Below, one piece after another: positions 15,481-41,860 of a stretch of DNA of 64,000 bases. The translations under genes were made by a program, and so were the position numbers. The DNA is taken from NCBI RefSeq assembly GCF_032854445.1, contig NC_088296.1:23817604-23881603 (forward strand). Direction: 5' to 3'. The notes beneath the pieces are model-generated. The model made no database searches. It worked only from the letters and a program-made list of their open reading frames with translations, and was not told the DNA's origin. Positions within the stretch are counted from its first letter, which is position 1. Each line of letters begins with the position of its first letter. The DNA is from Liolophura sinensis (lineage: Eukaryota > Mollusca > Polyplacophora > Chitonida > Chitonidae).

Positions 15481-15499
15481 CTGTATTCATGTAGCTACT

Positions 15500-18400
15500 A
15501 GTGTATATCAGAGTATGTACGCCCACTTCCTGTAGGTAGTAATGTGTATCAGAGTATGTACGCCCACTTCCTGTAGGTAGTTGTGTATATTAGAGTATGT
15601 ACGACTACTTCCTGTAGGTAGTGGTGTGTATCAGAGTATGTACGCCTACTTCCTGTAGGTAGTAGTGTATATCAGAGTATGTACACCCACTTCCTGTAGG
15701 TAGTAGTGTGTATCAGAGTATGTACGCCCACTTCCTCTAGGTAGTAGTGTATATCAGAGTATGCACGCCCACTTCCTGTAGGTAGTAGTGTGTATCAGAG
15801 TACGTACACCCACTTCCTCTAGGTAGTAGTGTGTATCAGAGTACGTACACCCACTTCCTGTAGGTAGTGGTGTGTATCAGAGTACGTACGCCCACTTCCT
15901 GTAGGTAGTGGTGTGTATCAGAGTATGTACTCCCACTTCCTGTAGGTAGTGGTGTATATCAGAGTATGTACACCCACTTCCTCTAGGTAGTAGTGTATAT
16001 CAGAGTATGCACGCCCGCTTCCTGTAGGTAGTAGTGTATATCAGAGTATGTACGCCCACTTCCTGTAGGTAGTGGTGTATATCAGAGTATGTACGCCCAC
16101 TGCCTGTAGGTAGTAGTGTGTACCAGAGTATGTACGCCCACTTCCTGTAGGTAGTGGTATGTACCAGAGTATGTACGCCCACTTCCTGTAGGTAGTAGTG
16201 TGTATCAGAGTATGTCCGTCTACTTCCTGTGGGTAGTAGTGTGTATCAGAGTATGTACGCCCACTTCCTGTAGGTAGTAGTGTGTATCAGAGTACGTACA
16301 CCCACTTCCTCTAGGTAGTAGTGTGTATCAGAGTACGTACACCCACTTCCTCTAGGTAGTAGTGTGTATCAGAGTACGTACACCCACTTCCTGTAGGTAG
16401 TGGTGTGTATCAGAGTACGTACGCCCACTTCCTGTAGGTAGTGGTGTGTATCAGAGTATGTACTCCCACTTCCTGTAGGTAGTGGTGTATATCAGAGTAC
16501 GTACACCCACTTCCTCTAGGTAGTAGTGTATATCAGAGTATGCACGCCCGCTTCCTGTAGGTAGTAGTGTATATCAGAGTATGTACGCCCACTTCCTGTA
16601 GGTAGTGGTGTATATCAGAGTATGTACGCCCACTGCCTGTAGGTAGTAGTGTGTACCAGAGTATGTACGCCCACTTCCTGTAGGTAGTGGTATGTACCAG
16701 AGTATGTACGCCCACTTCCTGTAGGAAGTAGTGTGTATCAGAGTATGTCCGTCTACTTCCTGTGGGTAGTAGTGTGTATCAGAGTATGCACGCCCACTTC
16801 CTGTACGTAGTGGTGTGTACCAGAGTATGTACGCCCACTTCCTGTAGGTAGTAGTGTGTACCAGAGTATGCACGCCACTTCCTGTAGGTAGTGATGTGTA
16901 CCAGAGTATGCACGCCCGCTTCCTGTAGGTAGTGGTATGTACCAGAGTATGCACGCCCGCTTCCTGTAGGTAGTGGTGTGTATCAGAGTATGTACGCCCA
17001 CTTCCTGTAAATAGTAGTGTGTATCAGAGTACATACGCCCACTTCCTGTAGGTAGTGGTGTGTATCAGAGTATGTACGCTCACTTCCTGTAGGTAGTGGT
17101 GGGTATCAGAGTACGTACGCCCACTTCCTGTAGGCAATGATGTGTATCAGGGTATGTACGCCCACTTCCTGTAGGTAGTGGTGTGTATCACAGTACGTAT
17201 GCCCACTTCCTGTAGGTAGTGGTGTGTATCAGAGTATGTACGCCCACTTCCTGTAGGTAGTGGTGTGTATCACAGTACGTATGCCCACTTCCTGTAGGTA
17301 GTGGTGTGTATCAGAGTATGTACGCCCACTTCCTGTAGGTAGTGGTGTGTATCAGGGTATGTACGCCCACTTCCTGTAGGTAGTGGTGTGTATCAGAGTA
17401 TGTACGCCCACTTCCTGTAGGTAGTGGTGTGTATCAGAGTATGTACGCCCACTTCCTGTAGGTAGTGGTGTGTATCAGAGTATGTACGCCCACTTCCTGT
17501 AGGTAGTTGTGTGTATCAGAGTATGTACGCTCACTTCCTGTAGGTAGTGGTGTGTACCAGAGTGTGCACGCCCACTTCCTGTAGGTAGTGGTGTGTATCA
17601 GAGTATGTACGCCCACTTCCTCTAGGTAGTGGTGTGTATCAGAGTATGTACGCCCACTTCCTGTAGGTAGTAGTGTGTATCAGAGTACATACGCCCACTT
17701 CCTGTAGGTAGTGGTGTGTATCAGAGTATGTACGCTCACTTCCTGTAGGTAGTGGTGGGTATCAGAGTACGTACGCCCACTTCCTGTAGGCAATGATGTG
17801 TATCAGGGTATGTACGCCCACTTCCTGTAGGTAGTGGTGTGTATCACAGTATGTACGCCCACTTCCTGTAGGTAGTGGTGTGTATCACAGTACGTATGCC
17901 CACTTCCTGTAGGTAGTGGTGGGTATCAGAGTACGTACGCCCACTTCCTGTAGGCAATGATGTGTATCAGGGTATGTACGCCCACTTCCTGTAGGTAGTG
18001 GTGTGTATCACAGTACGTATGCCCACTTCCTGTAGGTAGTGGTGTGTATCAGAGTATGTACGCCCACTTCCTGTAGGTAGTGGTGTGTATCACAGTACGT
18101 ATGCCCACTTCCTGTAGGTAGTGGTGTGTATCAGAGTATGTACGCCCACTTCCTGTAGGTAGTGGTGTGTATCAGGGTATGTACGCCCACTTCCTGTAGG
18201 TAGTGGTGTGTATCACAGTACGTATGCCCACTTCCTGTAGGTAGTGGTGTGTATCAGAGTATGTACGCCCACTTCCTGTAGGTAGTGGTGTGTATCAGAG
18301 TATGTACGCCCACTTCCTGTAGGTAGTGGTGTGTATCAGAGTATGTACGCCCACTTCCTGTAGGTAGTTGTGTGTATCAGAGTATGTACGCTCACTTCCT

Positions 18401-20535
18401 GTAGGTAGTGGTGTGTACCAGAGTGTGCACGCCCACTTCCTGTAGGTAGTGGTGTGTATCAGAGTATGTACGCCCACTTCCTCTAGGTAGTGGTGTGTAT
18501 CAGAGTATGTACGCCCACTTCCTGTAGGTAGTAGTGTGTATCAGAGTACATACGCCCACTTCCTGTAGGTAGTGGTGTGTATCAGAGTATGTACGCTCAC
18601 TTCCTGTAGGTAGTGGTGGGTATCAGAGTACGTACGCCCACTTCCTGTAGGCAATGATGTGTATCAGGGTATGTACGCCCACTTCCTGTAGGTAGTGGTG
18701 TGTATCACAGTACGTATGCCCACTTCCTGTAGGTAGTGGTGTGTATCAGAGTATGTACGCCCACTTCCTGTAGGTAGTGGTGTGTATCACAGTACGTATG
18801 CCCACTTCCTGTAGGTAGTGGTGTGTATCAGAGTATGTACGCCCACTTCCTGTAGGTAGTGGTGTGTATCAGGGTATGTACGCCCACTTCCTGTAGGTAG
18901 TGGTGTGTATCACAGTACGTATGCCCACTTCCTGTAGGTAGTGGTGTGTATCAGAGTATGTACGCCCACTTCCTGTAGGTAGTGGTGTGTATCAGAGTAT
19001 GTACGCCCACTTCCTGTAGGTAGTGGTGTGTATCAGAGTATGTACGCCCACTTCCTGTAGGTAGTTGTGTGTATCAGAGTATGTACGCTCACTTCCTGTA
19101 GGTAGTGGTGTGTACCAGAGTGTGCACGCCCACTTCCTGTAGGTAGTGGTGTGTATCAGAGTATGTACGCCCACTTCCTCTAGGTAGTGGTGTGTATCAG
19201 AGTATGTACGCCCACTTCCTGTAGGTAGTAGTGTGTATCAGAGTATGTACGCTCACTTCCTGTAGGTAGTAGTGTGTAGCAGAGTATGTACGCCCACTTC
19301 CTGTAGGTAGTGGTGTGTACCAGAGTATGTGCGCCCGCTTCCTGTAGGTAGTGGTGTGTATCAGAGTATGTACGCCCACTTCCTGTAGGTAGTGGTGTGT
19401 ATCAGAGTATGTACGCCCACTTCCTGTAGGTAGTGGTGTGTACCAGAGTAGGTACGCCCACTTCCTGTAGGTAGTGGTGTGTACCAGAGTATGTACGCCC
19501 ACTTCCTGTAGGTAGTGGTGTGTATCAGAGTATGTACGCCCACTTCCTGTAGGTAGTTGTGTGTATCAGAGTATGTACGCCCACTTCCTGTAGGTAGTGG
19601 TGTGTATCAGAGTATGTACGCCCACTTCCTGTAGGTAGTTGTGTGTATCAGAGTATGTACGCCCACTTCCTGTAGGTAGTGGTGTGTACCAGAGTATGTT
19701 CGCCCACTTCCTGTAGGTACTGGGTGTGTATCAGAGTATGTACGCCCACTTCCTGTAAGTAGTTGTGTGTATCAGAGTATGTACGCCCACTTCCTGTAGG
19801 TACTGGGTGTGTATCAGAGTATGTACGCCCACTTCCTGTAGGTAGTTGTGTGTATCAGAGTATGTACGCCCACTTCCTGTAGGTAGTAGTGTGTATCAGA
19901 GTATGTACGCCCACTTCCTGTAGGTAGTAGTGTGTACCAGAGTATGTACGCCCACTTCCTGTAGGTAGTTGTGTGTATCAGAGTATGTACGCCCACTTCC
20001 TGTAGGTAGTGGTGTGTACCAGAGTATGTACGCCCACTTCTTGTAGGTACTGGGTGTGTATCAGAGTATGTACGCCCACTTCCTGTAGGTAGTTGTGTGT
20101 ATCAGAGTATGTACGCCCACTTCCTGTAGGTACTGGGTGTGTATCAGAGTATGTACGCCCACTTCCTGTAGGTAGTTGTGTGTATCAGAGTATGTACGCC
20201 CACTTCCTGTAGGTAGTTGTGTGTATCAGAGTATGTACGCCCACTTCCTGTAGGTACTGGGTGTGTATCAGAGTATGTACGCCCACTTCCTGTAGGTAGT
20301 AGTGTGTATCAGAGTACGTATGCCCACTTCCTGTAGGTAGTGGTGTGTACCAGAGTATGCACGCCCACTTCCTGTAGGTAGTGGTGTGTACCAGAGTATG
20401 TACGCCCACTTCCTCTAGGTAGTGGTGTGTATCAGAGTATGTACGCCCACTTCCTGTAGGGAGTAGTGTGTATCAGAGTATGTATGCCCACTTCCTGTAG
20501 GTAGTAGTGTGTATCAGAGTACGTATGCCCACTTC
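15500..20535 (+). repeat. 41-bp satellite array, about 120 copies
   Basis: Unit contains GTATCAGAGTATGTACGCCC followed by ACTTCCTGTAGGTAGTGGTG, with an exact 41-base period. Long stretches are repeated as blocks: 16000-16182 recurs at 16533-16715 (13 units apart), and 17434-17616 recurs at 18295 and 18992 (21 and 17 units apart). The reverse strand has open frames of tyrosine- and threonine-rich 41-residue repeats. They stop at CTC-TGA in one register and have no other coding feature. The array lies between the converging 3' ends of gene A and PSAT1. Confidence 0.95.
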
Positions 20536-21422
20536 CATAGGTTTCCGTTGGTCAGCTTATCTTTTCTCTACCAGCACTGAGTGGTCAAGAAGGATACAGA
20601 GTGATTTGACCAGTTAATTATGGCATGTAAGTTTTAAATGCGGACTGCAGTGTAACTATATATCTAGCGGTCAGATACACCCCTTGCCACGACACAGGTC
20701 AACATAAGTACTGACCAGAGTCGTGTGATCAAGGTACCAGTAACCAGTAATCCTAATGATCTGGCTCCAGTATGTCCCATACTGGGATCAACATGGAGTT
20801 TTGGGAGTATATGCAAAGAGCTCCCCCAACCTACTCAAGTGACAAGCCCACTACATAAAGCACGGAAAGGTTGTAAAAGTTTGCAGTCTGTTTGAAGTTG
20901 TTAAATTAAGGTTTTCTGGTATCTGCGAAACAAACCTTGAATATTAAGAAACTTAAAACATTTTTTTTTTTTGCGTGGCCTTTTTTTTTTAGGATGACTA
21001 GATAATGTGGCCCCCACCTTCACAGAGTATTCTCTATACTATTTATCCCAACTTTTCTTCTAAATCACACAGACTTTTGACACAGTTTATACCCAGGAAA
21101 GATGTACACAAAGACAAAGAAGGAAAGAAATTTAAAGTTTCGGTATATAGATCGCGTTGACAATTTTTCTTCTCATTTAGAAGCAAATGACGAATGCACT
21201 AATATGATGATGTATATATATCCGTGGAACATCCGTTTCTGCTGGATGGCATGAGTAGCCACAGTTGCTGACGAACACTGCCTTTGTTACTGATGGCAGC
21301 ATCGGATGTCGGGTGTACACTGATGTTCATTGATGATTGTCATGGTTATTGATAGTCACTGGTTGTCTCCCTTTGTAAGCATGGCTGATATCAGTTAGTA
21401 TTGATCTCCTTCGTAACCATGG
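20536..21422. other. 3' flank of PSAT1
   Basis: Unique AT-rich sequence between the satellite and the PSAT1 stop codon, probably holding its 3' UTR. I found no clear reverse-strand AATAAA here. Confidence 0.4.
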
Positions 21423-24500: not shown

Positions 24501-27500
24501 TATTCAATAAAATAATAAAATAATATGAGCTAGATTTTAAATTCTCCAGTGAAACAGTTCTGCAAGTACTCGGATATGAAAAGGCATTTTGCTCTTTTCA
24601 ACAGCCTTTGCCCTAGTGGTAGAGAAAATGTGTACAACTTTCATAACCGTTACCGAAGCAGCTCTGTGACAGACTGATAAGGTCAATTCATAATGTAATA
24701 AAATAAAAAACAATATGATATACATGAGGTAAGTTTCAAGTCACATGCCCTTACCAGTAAAATCCGTTGGACTTGTCAATGACTTCATAAAGAGCGCGCG
24801 ATTTCTTCAGGGAGTGCTCGTACATGGCCTTTACACCTCCATGCTTGGCAATCCAGTCAAAAACTAAGCTCATGATGTATATACTGGGGGGAAAAAATTT
24901 CCTGTTTTTCACACATTTTGGGGTACTTCCACAATCTGACAATTGGTATTTTCTTTAAATGAGAGAGAGTTAACTATCATAAAGAAGCCACAGCTTGCAT
25001 ACATCAAAGTTCTCCACATGTGAAATATTTAAAATCTTGAAAAAACTTAATTAACTGAGATCAACAGAGGCTATCATAAAAATTACAAGATTCAAGGGAC
25101 AGAACTCTACAAAGGCAGATAACTCTTTCCATACCTGTATGTAGGTGGAGTGTTATACAATGATTTGTTTCCAGTCTGTACTTTATAATCCAGGATGGAC
25201 GGGCAGGTTTTCATGGCATGTCCTATCAGGTCATCCCTGACAATCACAACTGTTGCTCCAGCACAACCAATGTTCTTCTGTGCACCAGCAATGATGACTC
25301 CAAACTAAACAACAAATACAAATGTGATATTGTCCAGTTACAGGTAAACTGCTTGTGTATTTACATGAATGTATGAGATACTTCCAATTCAACTTGAATA
25401 TTTAGGACAATTTTAATAATTTCACATCACTTTCACCTAAAAGCAGGCCTGCCCTCTTTCTGATATATTATTAGTACTTTCTATTTATTTGATTGGTGTT
25501 TTATGCCGTACTCAAGAATATTTCACTTATATGATGGCGGCCAGCATTATGGTGGGTGGAAACCATTAGTGCTTTTTCACTGTAACAACACGCTGAACCA
25601 GGTAGGTTGTGCCTGCCCAACCACAGCATATGGTTGTAGGGTAATTTACCTTGGACACGTCAACTGGACGGGACAGCATATTTGAAGACATGTCACACAC
25701 TATTGGAATTCCTTTGGTGTCCGGGACAAATGGAAACTCAACTCCTGGTGAAAACAAAAACGCTGTTTCATTAGCTCAGAAAACCAGCACCAAAAGGCAA
25801 AAGGAAAGAAGGGGAGTTGGGGTGGGGGGTGGTAATGGAGGTGGGGGGTGGCGCAGCTGGATGACCATGCCCTGTTTGATTGGCACAGTAAACCATCACC
25901 AAAGAGAGACAATTGAAACACCATGTACTGTTTCATTAGCACAGTAAACCATCACCAAAGAGAGACAAATGACTCACTATGTAGTTTCATTATCACAGTA
26001 AACCATCACCAAAGAGAGACAATTGACTCACCATGCACTGTTTCATTAGCACAGTAAACCATCACCAAACAGAGACAATTGACTCACCATGTACTGTTTC
26101 ATTAGCACAGTAAACCATCACCAAACAGAGACAATTGACTCACCATGTACTGCTTCATTAGCACAGTAAACCATCACCAAAGAGAGACAATTGACTCACC
26201 ATGTACTGTTTCATTATCACAGTAAACCATCACCGAGAAGAGACAATTGACTCACCAATTAGGGTTTCATTAGCACCGTTAAGCATCACCGAAGAGAGAC
26301 AATTGACTCACCATGTAGGGTTTCATTAGCACAGTAAACCATCACCAAACAGAGACAATTGACTCACCATGTACTGCTTCATTAGCACAGTAAACCATCA
26401 CCAAACAGAGACAATTGACTCACCATGTACTGCTTCATTAGCACAGTAAACCATCACCAAACAGAGACAATTGACTCACCATGCACTGTTTCATTAGCAC
26501 AGTAAACCATCACCAAAGAGAGACAAATGACTCACTATGTACAGTTTCATTATCACAGTAAACCATCACCAAAGAGAGACAATTGACACACCATGTACAG
26601 TTTCATTATCACAGTAAACCATCACCAAACAGAGACAACTGACTCATTAGCACAGTAAACCATCACCAAAGAGAGACAAATGGCTCACCATGCACTGTTT
26701 CATTAGCGCAGTAATAGACATAAGAGGCCTCTGGGTCCAGCTTCCATTCCGACTCGTCACACAATCCTGAGGAAAAATAGAATGTTGATATAAAAATTAT
26801 ACCTTCCTTGAAACCATTTAACTATCGTTGGTGTGAACAGTAAGAAGAAATGTTTTGGAGAAACTATTCTCCAAGCATAATGATTAGATGAATATATACA
26901 TTAGCAGGTTGGTCTGGACATGATCCAACTTCCATTGGGTCAATTGCAATTTTGAGATTTTTATTCATTTATTTATTTGATTTTCACCTGCCGTACGTGG
27001 GAAGGTCTGTCAGCAACCTGCGGATGGTCATTGGTTTCCCATGTGCTCTGCCTCAGACAACTCCAGCAGGATATTCAAGAATATTTCACTTATACAATGA
27101 CAGCCCATGGGAAACCCATGACCATGAGCAGGTTGCTGAAAGACCTTCTCACGTACTTAATTTTATTTATTTATTTTTTTTTTTTTGAAGATTTACTTGT
27201 AGATCTGTTTATTTACTTTGGACACCCAGAGTGTTTATATCTTATACTACATGTACATAAACACATTGACATCTGCACATTGTCAACACCCGCACATAAA
27301 CAGTGTAAGCTTTACATGAAGACATGGAGAGTGGTGTTAGGTATCACTATCTGCCGAGATCTACTACATGAGGTCAGAGGTCAAGAGTTCATACTGATGA
27401 CAAGTCTGATTACCTGATGTCAGTGTGGGAGACATGTAAGATGCATGGGTAGGGATACGGGAGAGGTGTCTCAGTTTTATGATTAATGTTTTTGTAAGGA

Positions 27501-30500
27501 ATAATCTGCTAGTTCCATAAAAGAATTTTAAGTATTAATGTTAATGGAAAGAGTGAAACTTCAATGTCAGAGAAGAGCAATAAAAATAAAAAAAAACTTC
27601 AAAATCTTCTAACCTGTGGGAGGTGAGGACTGTCCCAGAAATTGCTCCCATTAAAAACATATTTACCTGTAATATTTTTTCGGAAAGCCTCACGAAAAAG
27701 GGAAAAACACACTAAAATCAGGTAGACTGAAAAGATGGATTTTCGTTTTTATTTCTATTCCTGTTTTGGATGTTTTTAGCGTCGACTCTGCCGTAAAACA
27801 CAAAAACCAAATTGGTGTTGCCTTACTATAAAACATAATAGGTTACATGCTAATGGACAACTGAGTTGCACGCTATTAAACAACTGAGTTACACGCTAAT
27901 GGGCAACTGAGTTACATACTAATGGGCAACTGAGTTAAATACAAATGGGCAAATGAGATACGTTCTCACGGACAACTGAACTACAAGCTAATGGACAAAA
28001 TGAGTTACATAATAATGGACAACTTGAGTTACATACTAATGGGCAACTGAGTTATGTACTAATGGACAACTGAGTTACACGCTAATGGACAACTGAGTTG
28101 CACGCTATTAAACAACTGAGTTACATGCTAATGGGCAACTGAGTTACATACTAATGGGCAACTGAGTTAAATACAAATGGGCAAATGAGTTACGTTCTCA
28201 CGGACAACTGAACTACACGCTAATGGACAAAATGAGTTACATAATAATGGACAACTGAGTTACATACTAATGGGCAACTGAGTTATGTACTAATGGACAA
28301 CTGAGTTACACGCTAATGGACAACTGAGTTACACGCTAATGGACAACTGAGTTACACGCTAATGGGCAAATGAGTTACGTTCTCATGGACAACTGAACTA
28401 CACGCTAATGGACAAAAGGAATTACATACTAATGGACAACTGAGTTACACGCTAATGGATAACTGAGTTACACGCTAATGGACAACTGAGTTACATACTA
28501 ATGGACAAATGAGTTACACGCTAATGGACAAATGAGTTACATCATAATCACAATGTCTGTACATGTAGCTATACACCCCGAAGTCTTTCAAAGCAATGGT
28601 CATGAGTTTCCCCTTGGCTCTGCCTGGTTTCCTCCTACCATCATGCTGGCTGTCGTCGTATAAGTAAACACCAATCAAGTGGATAAATAAATCATCTAAA
28701 AAAGCAAAATTTCACATTAAAAACTCACCTGAGTAGGTCTGTGTCTTGGGGAGGACAAGATTCACTGTGCCGTATTTTTCCGCCTCCTTGGCTGCCTTAG
28801 CAGACCACGTTCCCGTCACAAAATAGTCGGCCTTTTGATGGGATTTAAGGTTCATCAGGTTTAAGGGCGCAGCAGAAAACTGTCCTGTGCCTCCTCCCTG
28901 GACGAAGATTATGTGATAGTTCTCTGGAACATCTCTGTAACAGCAAAATATCTGACTGATTCCAATAATTGAAGTTTTAACCACACTGCCCCAAAATAAA
29001 TTAATATGGTTACAGATCAAATTTAAAAAATGTGAAATTTTTAAAAATGATGAAGTATTTTCATCCCAAAATCACACTATTTAAAGGTCCACATTTAGAG
29101 CCATTCTAGCTGCAGAGAACATTTGGAGTCCCAAACTGTTGGTGCTCCCAAACTAATGAAGCTCTCAAAAATCCCCAATAGAATTGAATTTTACAAAATT
29201 TTTTTAGGCAGTCACAACATCACCTTAAAAGTTTGGGATAAACACTGCCAACTTTTGTTCTAAATTCCACACTGATATACATGAAATACAGGTACCTCCT
29301 AGGTGATGTTAAACTATTATTGGTAGTACTGTAAATCTTCAACCTTTTCAGCCAATAAAGCACATTTCTCAGTGAATTTTCAGATTTTCCTAGTTATTTT
29401 TCTACACCCCTTAGTTCTCCCAGAATGTTTCAAAATATTGGTTGCAGAGGTCAATGAAAAGATTTAAGAATTAGGGTAGTTACAGTATACAGACACCAGG
29501 CATGACACCAGGCACGACACCAAGCTCATACTGACACCTGAGCATGACATGTTACATTGTTGCACAGTTCTGGGTATTAAACAGGCTTACAACAATGATC
29601 GCACACTGGATTCTGCTCTTGTGATGATCTTGAGGAATTCTGGTGATCGATGACTCATCTCTGACAAAAAAAAAATATATATACGTAAACAAAACTTGTG
29701 TACATATATCAGTAATGAGCAAACGTGTGTACATCTATCAGTAACGAGCAAATGTGTGTACATGTATCAGTAATGAGCAAACGTGTGTACATGTATCAGT
29801 AATGAGCAAATGTGTGTACATGTATCAGTAATGAGCAAATGCGTGTACATGTACCAGTAATGAGCAAACGTGTGTACATGTATCGGTAATGAGCAAACTT
29901 GTGTACATGTATCAGTAATGAGAAAAGTTGTGTACATGTATCACTAATTAGCAAACGTGTATACATGTTTCAGTAATGAGTAAACGTGTGTACATGTATC
30001 AGTAATGAGCAAACTTGTGTACATGTATCAGTAACAAGCAAACTTGTGTACATGTATTAGTAATGAGCAAACTTGTGTACATGTATCAGTAATGAGCAAA
30101 CTTGTGTACATGTATCAGTAACAAGCAAATGCGTGTACATGTATCATTAATAAGCAAACGTGTGTACATGTATCAGTAATGGGCAAACGTGTGTACATGT
30201 ATCAGTAATGAGCAAACTTGTGTACATGTATTAGTAATGAGCAAACGTGTGTACATGTATCAGTAATGAGCAAAAATGTGTACATGTATCGGTAATGAGC
30301 AAACTTGTGTACATGTATCAGTAATGAGAAAAGTTGTGTACATGTATCACTAATTAGCAAACGTGTATACATGTTTCAGTAATGAGTAAACGTGTGTACA
30401 TGTATCAGTAATGAGCAAACTTGTGTACATGTATCAGTAACAAGCAAACTTGTGTACATGTATCAGTAATGAGCAAACTTGTGTACATGTATCAGTAATG

Positions 30501-33500
30501 AGCAAACTTGTGTACATGTATCAGTAATTAGCAAACGTGTATACATGTATCAGTAACGAGCAAACGTGTGTACATGTATCAGTAATGAGCAAACTTGTGT
30601 ACATGTGTCAGTAACAAGCAAACTTGTGTACATGTATCAGTAATGAGCAAACTTGTGTACATGTATCAGTAATGAGCAAACTTGTGTACATGTATCAGTA
30701 ATGAGCAAACGCGTGTACATGTATCAGTAATGAGCAAACTTGTGTACATGTATCAGTAACGAGCAAACTTGTGTACATGTATTAGTAATGAGCAAACTTG
30801 TGTACATGTATCATTAATAAGCAAACGTGTGTACAAGAATCAGTAATGAGCAAACGTGTGTACATGTATCAGTAATGAGCAAACTTGTGCACATGTATCA
30901 ATAATGTGTGTACATGTATCAGTAATGAGCAAACTTGTGTACATGTATTAGTAATGAGCAAAGTTGTGTACATGTATCAGTAATGAGCAAAGTTGTGTAC
31001 ATGTATCGGTAATGAGCAAACTTGTGTACATGTATCAGTAATGAGAAAAGTTGTGTACATGTATCACTAATTAGCAAACGTGTATACATGTTTCAGTAAT
31101 GAGTAAACGTGTGTACATGTATCAGTAATGAGCAAACTTGTGTACATGTATCAGTAACAAGCAAACTTGTGTACATGTATCAGTAATGAGCAAACTTGTG
31201 TACATGTATCAGTAATGAGCAAACTTGTGTACATGTATCAGTAACAAGCAAATGCGTGTACATGTATCATTAATAAGCAAACGTGTGTACATGTATCACT
31301 AATGAGCAAACGTGTGTACATGTATCAGTAATGAGCAAACTTGTGCACATGTATCAATAATGTGTGTACATGTATCAGTAATGGGCAAACGTGTGTACAT
31401 GTATCAGTAATGAGCAAACTTGTGTACATGTATTAATAATGAGCAAACGTGTGTACATGTATCAGTAATGAGCAAACTTGTGTACATGTATCGGTAATGA
31501 GCAAACTTGTGTACATGTATCAGTAATGAGAAAAGTTGTGTACATGTATCACTAATTAGCAAACGTGTATACATGTTTCAGTAATGAGTAAACGTGTGTA
31601 CATGTATCAGTAATGAGCAAACTTGTGTACATGTATCAGTAACAAGCAAACTTGTGTACATGTATCAGTAATGAGCAAACTTGTGTACATGTATCAGTAA
31701 TGAGCAAACTTGTGTACATGTATCAGTAGTTAGCAAACGTGTATACATGTATCAGTAATGAACAAACGTGTATACATGTATCAGTAACGAGCAAACGTGT
31801 GTACATGTATCAGTAATGAGCAAACTTGTGTACATGTGTCAGTAACAAGCAAACTTGTGTACATGTATCAGTAATGAGCAAACTTGTGTACATGTATCAG
31901 TAATGAGCAAACTTGTGTACATGTATCAGTAATGAGCAAACGCGTGTACATGTATCAGTAATGAGCAAACTTGTGTACATGTATCAGTAACGAGCAAACT
32001 TGTGTACATGTATTAGTAATGAGCAAACATGTGTACATGTATCATTAATAAGCAAACGTGTGTACAAGAATCAGTAATGAGCAAACGTGTGTACATGTAT
32101 CAGTAATGAGCAAACTTGTGCACATGTATCAATAATGTGTGTACATGTATCAGTAATGAGCAAACTTGTGTACATGTATTAGTAATGAGCAAAGTTGTGT
32201 ACATGTATCAGTAATGAGCAAAGTTGTGTACATGTATCGGTAATGAGCAAACTTGTGTACATGTATCAGTAATGAGAAAAGTTGTGTACATGTATCACTA
32301 ATTAGCAAACGTGTATACATGTTTCAGTAATGAGTAAACGTGTGTACATGTATCAGTAATGAGCAAACTTGTGTACATGTATCAGTAACAAGCAAACTTG
32401 TGTACATGTATCAGTAACAAGCAAACTTGTGTACATGTATTAGTAATGAGCAAACTTGTGTACATGTATCAGTAATTAGCAAACGCGTATACATGTATCA
32501 GTAGTTAGCAAACGTGTATACATGTATCAGTAAGGAGCAAATGTGTGTACATATATCAGTAATGAGCAAACTTGTGTACATGTATCAGTAACAAGCAAAC
32601 TTGTCTACATGTGTCAGTAATGAGCAAACTTGTGTACATGTATCAGTAATGAGCATATATACACATGTGTAACAAATGAGAAACAGCTGAGCCCCAGCCT
32701 TGAGAACATGGCTGGTCAGCAATTTTCCACTCTCCTTCTTGCCATTTTAGGCCGCCAGAATATGAGTAAATTCACGATTTTAACACATTTGGCATATACT
32801 TTAAAATAACCAATTTTATGGCAGATAGCATATTTTAAGCGAGAAACGGCTGATCCTGACAGAATTCGTGGTCACCCACAAAAGGTTTTCAGGTGTCAGA
32901 TGAATTACTACTAAAAACCAAAAACTTTGACAAGCAATCACATCAGAGTGTTCTAAATTGTCACTTCTACCTTTGCAATCATGATCATATCTGAGATTCC
33001 CTTTTCTGACACAATGATACATGCATATGAGTGGGCATTCTGCATTTAACCTCTGCTTTACGGAGTTGAAATTTACACACACTGCTCAGCTCTAGGTGAA
33101 GAGTTCAAGCGTGTCAAGGAGACTGACTGTCTGAAGATAACAGACTTTGTGTTTTTGTTTTTCACATGGAAGAGTCCTCGAAGTCAAAGAGAGTAGTGCT
33201 CATTGCTCTGGTACAGATATCCACTGACCAATGAAATTATGTGTTTCTATACAGCCTCCCCCCCCCCCTTACATTTCCAAACTTCTCTCCCTCCTCACAC
33301 CCTGCCTCAGGAGGTGTAGTTAGGTTCAAAACAGGAGAGGTGTCAATTATATCAGAGTTCATACAGGTTTGGTGGTTTGTCCTTGGGATGATTTTGGTAA
33401 CTGATACATTTCATACTGGTTCAAAATCAAAATATTTATGGAAACTGATACCAACTACACTGGACTGTCTACAGTGTATAAGTCATCAAATGCTTGTAGT

Positions 33501-38040: not shown

Positions 38041-41000
38041 TTAGTGTGGAAGGGGCTGCATGGCTGCATGTGGCCCTTCATGGCACTATATGGGCTCTGT
38101 ATTCTATGTATATCTAGGCCCTAGTGTGGAAGGGGATGCATGGCTGTATGTGGCCCTACATGACACTATATAGGCTCCATATACTATGTATATCTAGGCC
38201 CTAGTATGGAAGGGGATGCATGGCTGCATGTTGCCCTACATGACACTATATAGGCTCCATATACTATGTATATCTTGGCCCTAGTGTGGAAGGGGATGCA
38301 TGGCTGTATGTTGCCCTAGATGGCACTATATAGGCTCTGTGTTCTATGTATATCTTGGCCCTAATGTGGAAGGGGAGATGCATGCCTGTATGTGGCCCTA
38401 CATGACACTATATAGGCTCCATATACTATGTATATCTAGGCCCTAGTGTGGAAGGGGATGCATGGCTGCATGTGGCCCTACATGACATTATATAGGCTCC
38501 ATATACTATGTATATCTAGGCCCTAGTGTGGAAGGGGATGCATGGCTGCATGTTGCCCTACATGGCACTATATAGGCTCTGTATTCTATGTATATCTAGG
38601 CCCTAGTGTGGAGGATGCATGGCTGTGTGTGGCCCTTCATGGCACTATATAGGCTCCATATACTATGTATATCTTGGCCCTAGTGTGGAAGGGGATGCAT
38701 GGCTGTATGTGGCCCTACATGGCACTATATAGGCTCTGTATACTGTGTATATCTAGGCCCTAATGTGGAAGGGGATGCATGGCTGCATGTGGCCCTACAT
38801 GACACTATATAGGCTCTGTATACTATGTATATCTAGGCCCTAGTGTGGAAGGGGCTGCATGGCTGCATGTGGCCCTACATGACACTATATAGGCTCTGTA
38901 TACTATGTATATCTAGGCCCTAGTGTGGAAGGGGATGCATGGCTGCATGTGGCCCTACATGACACTATATAGCCTCCATATACTATGTATATCTAGGCCC
39001 TAGTGTGGAAGGGGATGCATGGCTGTATGTGGCCCTACATGACACTATATAGGCTCCATATACTATGTATATCTAGGCCCTAGTGTGGAAGGGGATGCAT
39101 GGCTGCATGTTGCCCTACATGGCACTATATAGGCTCCATATACTATGTATATCTAGGCCCTAGTGTGGAAGGGGATGCATGGCTGCATGTGGCCCTACAT
39201 GACACTATATAGGCTCCATATACTATGTATATCTAGGCCCTAGTGTGGAAGGGGATGCATGGCTGTATGTGGCCCTTCATGGCACTATATACGCTCTGTA
39301 TACTATGTATATCTAGGCCCTAGTGTGGAAGGGGATGCATGGCTGCATGTGGCCCTACATGACACTATATAGGCTCTGTATACTATGTATATCTAGGCCC
39401 TAGTGTGGAAGGGGATGCATGGCTGCATGTGGCCCTACATGACACTATATAGGCTCCATATACTATTTATATCTAGGCCCTAGTGTGGAAGGGGATGCAT
39501 GGCTGTATGTGGCCCTTCATGGCACTATATAGGCTCTGTATTCTATGTATATCTAGGCTCTAGTGTGGAAGGGGATGCATGGCTGCATGTAGCCCTACAT
39601 GACATTATATAGGCTCCATATACTATGTATATCTAGGCTCTAGTGTGGAAGGGGATGCATGGCTGCATGTGGCCCTACATGACACTATATAGGCTCTGTA
39701 TTCTATGTATATCTAGGCCCTAGTGTGGAAGGGTATGCATGCCTGTATGTGGCCCAACATGACACTATATAGGCTCTGTATACTATGTATATCTAGGCCC
39801 TAGTGTGGAAGGGGATGCATGGCTGCATGTTGCCCTACATGACATTATATAGGCTCAATATACTATGTATGTCTAGGCCCTAGTGTGGAAGGGGATGCAT
39901 GGCTGCATGTTGCCCTACATGGCACTATATAGGCTCTGTATACTATGTATATCTAGGCCCTAGTGTGGAAGGGGATGCATGGCTGTATGTGGCCCTACAT
40001 GGCACTATATAGGCTCCTTATACTATGTATATCTTGGCCCTAGTGTGGAAGGGGATGCATGGTTGTATGTGGCCCTTCATGGCACTATATACGCTCTGTA
40101 TACTATGTATATCTAGGCCCTAGTGTGGAAGGGGATGCATGGCTGCATGTGGCCCTACATGACATTATATAGGCTCCATATACTATGTATATCTTGGCCC
40201 TAGTGTGGAAGGGGATGCATGGCTGTATGTTGCCCTACATGACACTATATACGCTCTGTATACTATGTATATCTAGGCCCTAGTGTGGAAGGGGATGCAT
40301 GGCTGCATGTGGCCCTTCATGGCACTATATAGGCTCCATATACTATGTATATCTTGGCCCTAGTGTGGAAGGGGATGCATGGCTGTATGTGGCCCTACAT
40401 GGCACTATATAGGCTCTGTATACTATGTATATCTAGGCCCTAGTGTGGAAGGGGATGCATGGCTGCATGTGGCCCTACATGACACTATATAGGCTCTGTA
40501 TACTATGTATATCTAGGCCCTAGTGTGGAGGGGGATGCATGGCTGTATGTGGCCCTACATGACACTATATAGGCTCCATATACTATGTATATCTAGGCCC
40601 TAGTGTGGAAGGGGATGCATGGCTGCATGTGGCCCTACATGACACTATATAGGCTCCATATACTATGTATATCTAGGCCCTAGTGTGGAAGGGGATGCAT
40701 GGCTGCATGTGGCCCTACATGACACTATATAGGCTCCATATACTATGTATATCTTGGCCCTAGTGTGGAAGGGGATGCATGGCTGTATGTTGCCCTACAT
40801 GACACTATATAGGCTCTGTATACTATGTATATCTAGGCCCTAGTGTGGAAGGGGATGCATGGCTGCATGTGGCCCTACATGACACTATATAGGCTCTGTA
40901 TTCTATGTATATCTAGGCCCTAGTGTGGAAGGGTATGCATGCCTGTATGTGGCCCTACATTGCACTATATATTTTCCATATACTATGTATATCTAGGCCC

Positions 41001-41860
41001 TAGTGTGGAAGGGGATGCATGGCTGCATGTGGCCCTTCATGGCACTATATAGGCTCTGTATTCTATGTATATCTAGGCCCTAGTGTGGAAGGGGATGCAT
41101 GGCTGTATGTGGCTCTTCATGGCACTATATAGGCTCTGTATTCTATGTATATCTAGGCCCTAGTGTGGAAGGGGATGCATGGCTGCATGTGGCCCTACAT
41201 GACACTATATAGGCTCCATATACTATGTATATCTAGGCCCTAGTGTGGAAGGGGATGCATGGCTGCATGTGGCCCTACATGACATTATATAGGCTCCATA
41301 TACTATGTATATCTAGGCTCTAGTGTGGAAGGGGATTCATGGCTGCATGTGGCCCTACATGACACTATATAGGCTCTGTATTCTATGTATATCTAGGCCC
41401 TAGTGTGGAAGGGTATGCATGCCTGTATGTGGCCCAACATGACACTATATAGGCTCTGTATACTATGTATATCTAGGCCCTAGTGTGGAAGGGGATGCAT
41501 GGCTGCATGTTGCCCTACATGGCACTATATGGGCTCTGTATTCTATGTATATCTAGGCCCTAGTGTGGAAGGGGATGCATGGCTGCATGTGGCCCTTCAT
41601 GGCACTATATAGGCTCCATATACTATGTATATCTTGGCCCTAGTGTGGAAGGGGATGCATGCCTGTATGTGGCCCTACATGACACTATATACGCTCTGTA
41701 TACTATGTATATCTAGGCCCTAGTGTGGAAGGGGATGCATGGCTGTATGTGGCCCTACATGGCACTATATAGGTTCTGTATGGCTGTATGTGGCCCTACA
41801 TGGCACTATATAGGCTCTGTATCTAGTGTATATCTAGGCCCTAGTATGGAAGGGGAGGTC
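38041..41860 (+). repeat. 80-bp satellite array, about 48 copies
   Basis: Unit CTAGTGTGGAAGGGGATGCA, TGGCTGCATGTGGCCCTACA, TGACACTATATAGGCTCCAT, ATACTATGTATATCTAGGCC. Between 38761 and 41760 the register hardly slips: the same string falls every 80 bases. Variants co-occur (CTCCATATACTATG with CTCTGTATTCTATG; GACACTA with GGCACTA), giving mixed subfamilies. The last units are truncated at 41780-41860. Confidence 0.95.

Follow-up and report, generated by a model that had tools for sequence, protein, structure and literature searches.

A minisatellite seeded by the exon 5 splice donor fills most of PSAT1 intron 5 in the chiton Liolophura sinensis, with similar arrays at other exons of the genome

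What happens to splicing when an intron consists largely of copies of the donor that opens it? This question is raised by a stretch of 64,000 nucleotides from Liolophura sinensis (contig NC_088296.1, positions 23,817,604 to 23,881,603; hereafter the window), in which an earlier note had read intron 5 of PSAT1 as a tandem array of its own 5' splice site and proposed that either the first donor is strongly favoured or the array tunes the output of the gene.

PSAT1 lies on the minus strand of the window. The translation of exons 5 and 6 matches human phosphoserine aminotransferase chains (E ~7e-25), and a query with human PSAT1 yields ten candidate exon segments (36811 to 21426), of which two on the 5' side are weak. 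The features around intron 5 are listed below (a slash marks the exon/intron limit; all U1 duplex energies given here ignore pseudouridines).

26689..26766, minus strand: PSAT1 exon 5, 78 bp (from the sequence and the match to the human PSAT1 protein)
26714-26689, minus strand: 3' end of exon 5 (~26 bases), genuine seed of the array
26683..26691, minus strand: authentic 5' splice site ATG/GTGAGC, donor G at 26688 (U1 duplex -8.1 kcal/mol)
25745..26688, minus strand: PSAT1 intron 5, 944 bp, mostly array
26663..26665, minus strand: in-frame TGA past the real donor, intron bases 24-26 (from the reading frame)
25864..26687, minus strand: 56-bp minisatellite, 15 intronic copies, 11 with GTGAGT (Tandem Repeats Finder; alignment of units and donors)
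26639..26679, minus strand: shortened opening step of the array, the TTGTCTCT anchors of first copy and real unit lying 41 bp apart
25763..25794, minus strand: further diverged copy adjoining the acceptor, holding GCTAATGA (32 bp at 90.6% identity with units of the array)
25650..25744, minus strand: PSAT1 exon 6, 95 bp, acceptor TTTTCACCAG/GAG, first base 25744 (from the protein match)

Tandem Repeats Finder (TRF) reports the array at 25864-26646, with a period of 56, 14.0 copies, 91% matches and a score of 1258. Each unit comprises ~26 bases from the end of exon 5, followed by the donor and ~30 bases of intron 5. The array straddles the exon/intron boundary, as do the "mirages" to which we return below. 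The authentic boundary is the edge (first) unit, and only that copy runs into conserved PSAT1 coding sequence. Fourteen anchored copies and an incomplete one (donor at 25865) make up the 15 intronic copies. The splice signal is present in many of them, not in all: 11 read GTGAGT (preceded in two cases by A instead of G), one GTGTGT, one GTGTTT and one GTCATC, and one has lost its donor. Thirteen of the 15 copies can be aligned without gaps; their mean identity to the real junction is 0.842 over 36 bp, single copies being as low as 0.72, and the exon-like part averages 0.853 over the 22 exonic bases, above the bar of 80% identity to exon 5 that had been set beforehand. In a self-comparison, 13 hits overlap exon 5 by at least 15 bp (26 bp in at least two of them), and the other nine PSAT1 exon segments have no exon-overlapping copies. 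The earlier note was thus right that intron 5 is an array seeded by the exon 5 donor with the real junction at its edge, and that most copies carry GTGAGT where the true site has GTGAGC.

Its picture of a weaker real donor followed by a series of stronger decoys holds in part. In nine of the 15 copies the U1 duplex is stronger (-8.9) than at the real site (-8.1); the copy nearest to the real site, however, has no donor. Counting from the real donor, this first copy reads CTA/ATGAGT (TRF period 41 at 26603-26687), its donor having been lost because the copy is shortened by 15 bp; the second copy has GTGTGT and the third ATA/GTGAGT. At the other end of the intron, the diverged copy (25794-25763) contains GCTAATGA, which by eye looks like a putative branch point. 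Within the 824 bp of the array there are nine donor-like sites with a U1 energy of -8 or better, i.e. 10.9/kb against 0.76/kb on the same strand outside arrays, a density far beyond chance. Among 18 array intervals taken from TRF, strong donor-like sites on the strand of the gene are found in the PSAT1 array (9) and in one other (1), and on the plus strand in two arrays (4 and 6). Tandem arrays occupy about 30% of the window; two of them have 123 copies of 41 bp (15486-20536) and 47 copies of 80 bp (38042-41781), respectively.

Use of a decoy would have a predictable cost. The earlier note had pointed to an early in-frame TGA past the real donor, and this stop is indeed found (intron bases 24-26). 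A GT is first retained in the copy at intron +97, and each GT-keeping copy lies beyond the TGA; with a decoy in use, the stop would precede the new junction by 71 nt or more. The usual rule for nonsense-mediated decay asks for a stop 50-55 nt before a junction, and decoy-spliced PSAT1 messages are therefore predicted targets of this pathway. The statement that the copies contain no AG acceptor is not literally true, since 12 CAG/TAG trinucleotides fall in array copies. Intron 5 has 32 AG in total and 15 CAG/TAG, the remaining three being in the diverged last copy, between this copy and the array, and at the real acceptor; by eye, none of the array CAG/TAGs has a pyrimidine tract directly before it.

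Is such an array peculiar to PSAT1? A search with the junction across the whole genome (609,464,459 bases, 632 contigs) gave six matches, all at the PSAT1 locus, in a procedure that skips common words and so may miss other loci. One contig, G000:C99 (108,685 bp), carries COX1 about every 15.5 kb, as head-to-tail mitochondrial copies that are probably an assembly product. We also cut conserved exon matches of four families with 1.5-kb flanks, best matches first (n=87: best 30 of 50 for PF00118, 21 of 21 for PF00227, best 22 of 49 for PF00270 and best 14 of 20 for PF00004), some of these loci overlapping one another. Donor-side arrays overlapping the exon, confirmed by reading the sequence, are present at five of the 87 exons (95% interval 1.9-12.9%), none of them among the 14 PF00004 matches sampled:

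L011: CCT gene, unit 66 bp, 10 of 11 decoys match or surpass the real donor
L019: CCT gene, unit about 60 bp, 1 of 5 decoys matches or surpasses the real donor
L022: CCT, unit 109 bp, 3 of 6 decoys match or surpass the real donor
L053: proteasome, unit 80 bp, 3 of 5 decoys match or surpass the real donor
L076: DEAD-box, unit 65 bp, 7 of 22 decoys match or surpass the real donor

Exon-overlapping donor arrays are not peculiar to PSAT1. There are limits to the generality of the 5/87, which comes from a small sample of four families taken best matches first, and in which L011 and L019, neighbours on one contig, evidently belong to one CCT gene. Decoys strictly better than the real donor occur in L053 (3/5, one of them by just 0.1 kcal/mol), and none were seen in L011, L019, L022 or L076. 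At L011 (1646-2106 in gene orientation) the 66-bp unit is in frame with the exon and the first copies have no stop; judging from this frame, splicing from a decoy there would insert 22-residue repeats and no stop.

On the acceptor side, one clear array (L062) and one touching the exon (L020) were found among the same 87 exons, and a bias of donors over acceptors (5/87 vs 1 or 2/87) is not significant (p = 0.21 or 0.44). L062 was left out of the donor count for its side. L020 was left out as well: the HMM match gives it 37 exonic hits, yet by eye the array begins past the exon end, and a second array there reaches the acceptor with 1-2 exon bases. Also omitted were L018, L082 and L091, with self-hits none of which has 15 exonic bases, and L084 and L086, where two whole exons and no array account for the hits. 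At L084 (1495-1923; G000:C1:39401644-39402075) the two neighbouring AAA exons, presumably katanin-like, are 75% identical, each with splice-like ends, and are candidate mutually exclusive exons. PSAT1 itself has a 103-copy, 29-bp array (window 29692-32655) ending ~30 nt before exon 3; on the strand of the gene, most of the units seen hold TTACTGAT, a putative branch point by its look, and this array may be a candidate acceptor-side counterpart.

Measured from the ends of HMM matches, not from mapped splice sites, arrays cover 8.1% of the 25 bp that follow exon matches and 2.3% of the 25 bp directly upstream, as against 9.4% of the flanks and 3.2% of the exon matches themselves, so arrays are unthinned at donors and thinned in coding sequence. 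Once formed, the decoys do not appear to be under a clear regime of their own: in 62 copies of six arrays, compared with their own consensus, core donor positions carry 43 mismatches in 558 (7.7%) against 91 in 1674 (5.4%) elsewhere (p = 0.063), which shows neither protection nor clear removal of decoy donors. In PSAT1, L019 and L076 (3/6 arrays) the decoy closest to the real donor is either absent or clearly weaker than it, and in L011, L022 and L053 (3/6) it is about equal. The former could mean that decoys near the site are not harmless. We considered whether the decoys closest to the true donor had been selectively disabled and rejected this, given the equality in half of the arrays and the p value of the donor mutation excess.

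We think that the PSAT1 array is a mirage that arose by tandem duplication across the boundary and is mostly tolerated since the first donor is the one used, and we would give this reading a probability of about 0.78. A segment spanning the 3' edge of exon 5 and its 5' splice site would have been duplicated in tandem, and the array would have grown later by slippage or unequal exchange. Such duplications would arise throughout a minisatellite-rich genome without regard to donors, which fits the 8.1% coverage past exon ends, near the flank average; those falling in coding sequence would be purged by selection, and those straddling a donor would survive. Their survival in turn suggests that splicing keeps to the exon-side donor: the spliceosome would join this first donor, as exon definition expects, and the mRNA would be unchanged. 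A message occasionally spliced from a decoy would carry the TGA at intron +24 and be expected to fall to nonsense-mediated decay, so that PSAT1 output would drop slightly at most, in proportion to the number of copies.

A first-donor bias also seems likelier, from the sequence, than the tuning of PSAT1 that the earlier note had offered as an alternative. In that scenario, the decoys compete for U1, the share of transcripts spliced from them carries the TGA and is degraded, and the number of copies sets PSAT1 output. The better U1 pairing of nine copies and the position of all GT-keeping copies beyond the stop are what it would predict. However, CCT, proteasome and DEAD-box genes share the anatomy of the PSAT1 array, donor bases in the copies show no excess preservation, and the copy nearest the real site is without a donor. 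Similar arrays in unrelated housekeeping genes, at five of 87 exons, and donor bases neither spared nor clearly lost (p = 0.063) weaken the proposal; we regard tuning as quite improbable, and a tuning specific to PSAT1 has no support. The more trivial possibility that the array is an assembly artefact, a collapsed or inflated repeat, deserves mention because tandem arrays can be mis-sized and the HiFi coverage given in the accessible part of PMC11068029 is modest (14x). The same text, as far as available, gives a mean HiFi read of 8,347 bp against an array of 0.8 kb; the copies are not identical to each other, and other loci carry similar arrays, all of which makes an artefact very hard to believe.

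A bolder hypothesis is that the array records the birth of the intron. Intron 5 would then, rather doubtfully, have been born by tandem duplication of an unbroken coding sequence across the Gly of VHG/VEF (~residue 159), where the intron sits in phase 1. Its start would be a decayed exon 6 start and its end a decayed exon 5 end, the array being the expanded duplication; this too we hold to be unlikely. By the same tentative account, a donor would have arisen in the first copy and an acceptor beside the last, and everything between would have become intron, with a ladder of its own donors. In keeping with this, the intron start (GTGAG, a three-base gap, then CCATTTGTC) is similar to the beginning of exon 6, GAGTTGAGTTTCCATTTGTC, read in the same frame; by prefix alignment, a score as high is reached by 3/449 other GTRAG sites, 118/4000 shuffled intron tails, 2/4000 shuffled exon starts and 19/4000 random 36-mers. 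The decayed unit abutting the acceptor reads ANET...GVEF in frame, and little of intron 5 lies outside the array. Prefix alignment replaced a first, end-to-end scoring in which pairing was forced and scores as high were common (110/564 sites, 4679/20000 intron-tail shuffles, 831/20000 exon shuffles); the local score from that first scoring was reached by 3/564 sites. Against the hypothesis, the commonest unit start scores 6.0, below the 8.0 of the real intron start, and by eye ~16 bp of the unit match neither exon. The likeness is modest and was spotted after the fact, and its support is suggestive. If the hypothesis were true, mirages at ~6% of sampled exon ends (5/87) would imply introns at every stage of birth in this genome.

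A tolerated mirage, the reading that we prefer, has its own interest. Each mirage is a natural experiment in donor choice, with 5 to 22 donor copies behind the true one in our six arrays, many of them as good as the true donor, and mirages are a proposed starting material for new introns. Their presence in several percent of sampled exons of a mollusc suggests that a genome rich in minisatellites produces them repeatedly, and that they are no peculiarity of cephalochordates.

The original mirage paper is reportedly that of Canestro 2002. A search at the level of titles and beginnings of abstracts found no mollusc mirage. Mirages have so far been described from a handful of amphioxus genes, going by the accessible parts of two papers: Adh3 and the globins BflGb6 and BflGb9, as minisatellites at exon/intron boundaries (PMC3087553), then PGBD5 as an added case, with troponin C cited (PMC3902484). 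The assertion that no minisatellite seeded by a splice donor had been described must consequently be given up, these being of the same kind. As in PSAT1, tandem repeats straddle a boundary and copy its splice signal, and the amphioxus units of 10-160 bp (same available text) span the 56 bp of the PSAT1 unit. In the available passages, Adh3 data and RT-PCR of the globins suggested undisturbed splicing (PMC3087553; also PMC3902484), with which the use of the first donor that we infer for the chiton agrees. Mirages of the amphioxus type are also marked by length polymorphism between haplotypes or by somatic instability; the chiton assembly is a single haploid one, with one such locus found for PSAT1. 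The chiton differs in being a mollusc, in that 15 intronic copies fill most of the intron with nine of 15 decoys better than the real donor, and in the presence of arrays at 5/87 sampled exons, whereas the amphioxus accounts, as far as accessible, name single genes.

Ordinary intronic minisatellites resemble the PSAT1 array in their imperfect head-to-tail copies and in the array-dense genome around them (30% of the window); the PSAT1 unit, in contrast, holds conserved coding sequence and a splice donor. The accessible part of an earthworm paper describes intronic minisatellites and no boundary copies (PMC12783039). Finally, the Rogers model derives intron gain from the tandem duplication of AG/GT proto-splice sites (cited in PMC3087553, in its available part). 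The likeness is that a coding segment whose ends are splice-like is duplicated in tandem and that splice sites within the copies are used; the difference is that the PSAT1 array, plainly read, is the duplication of an existing boundary, the birth of an intron being a suggestion.
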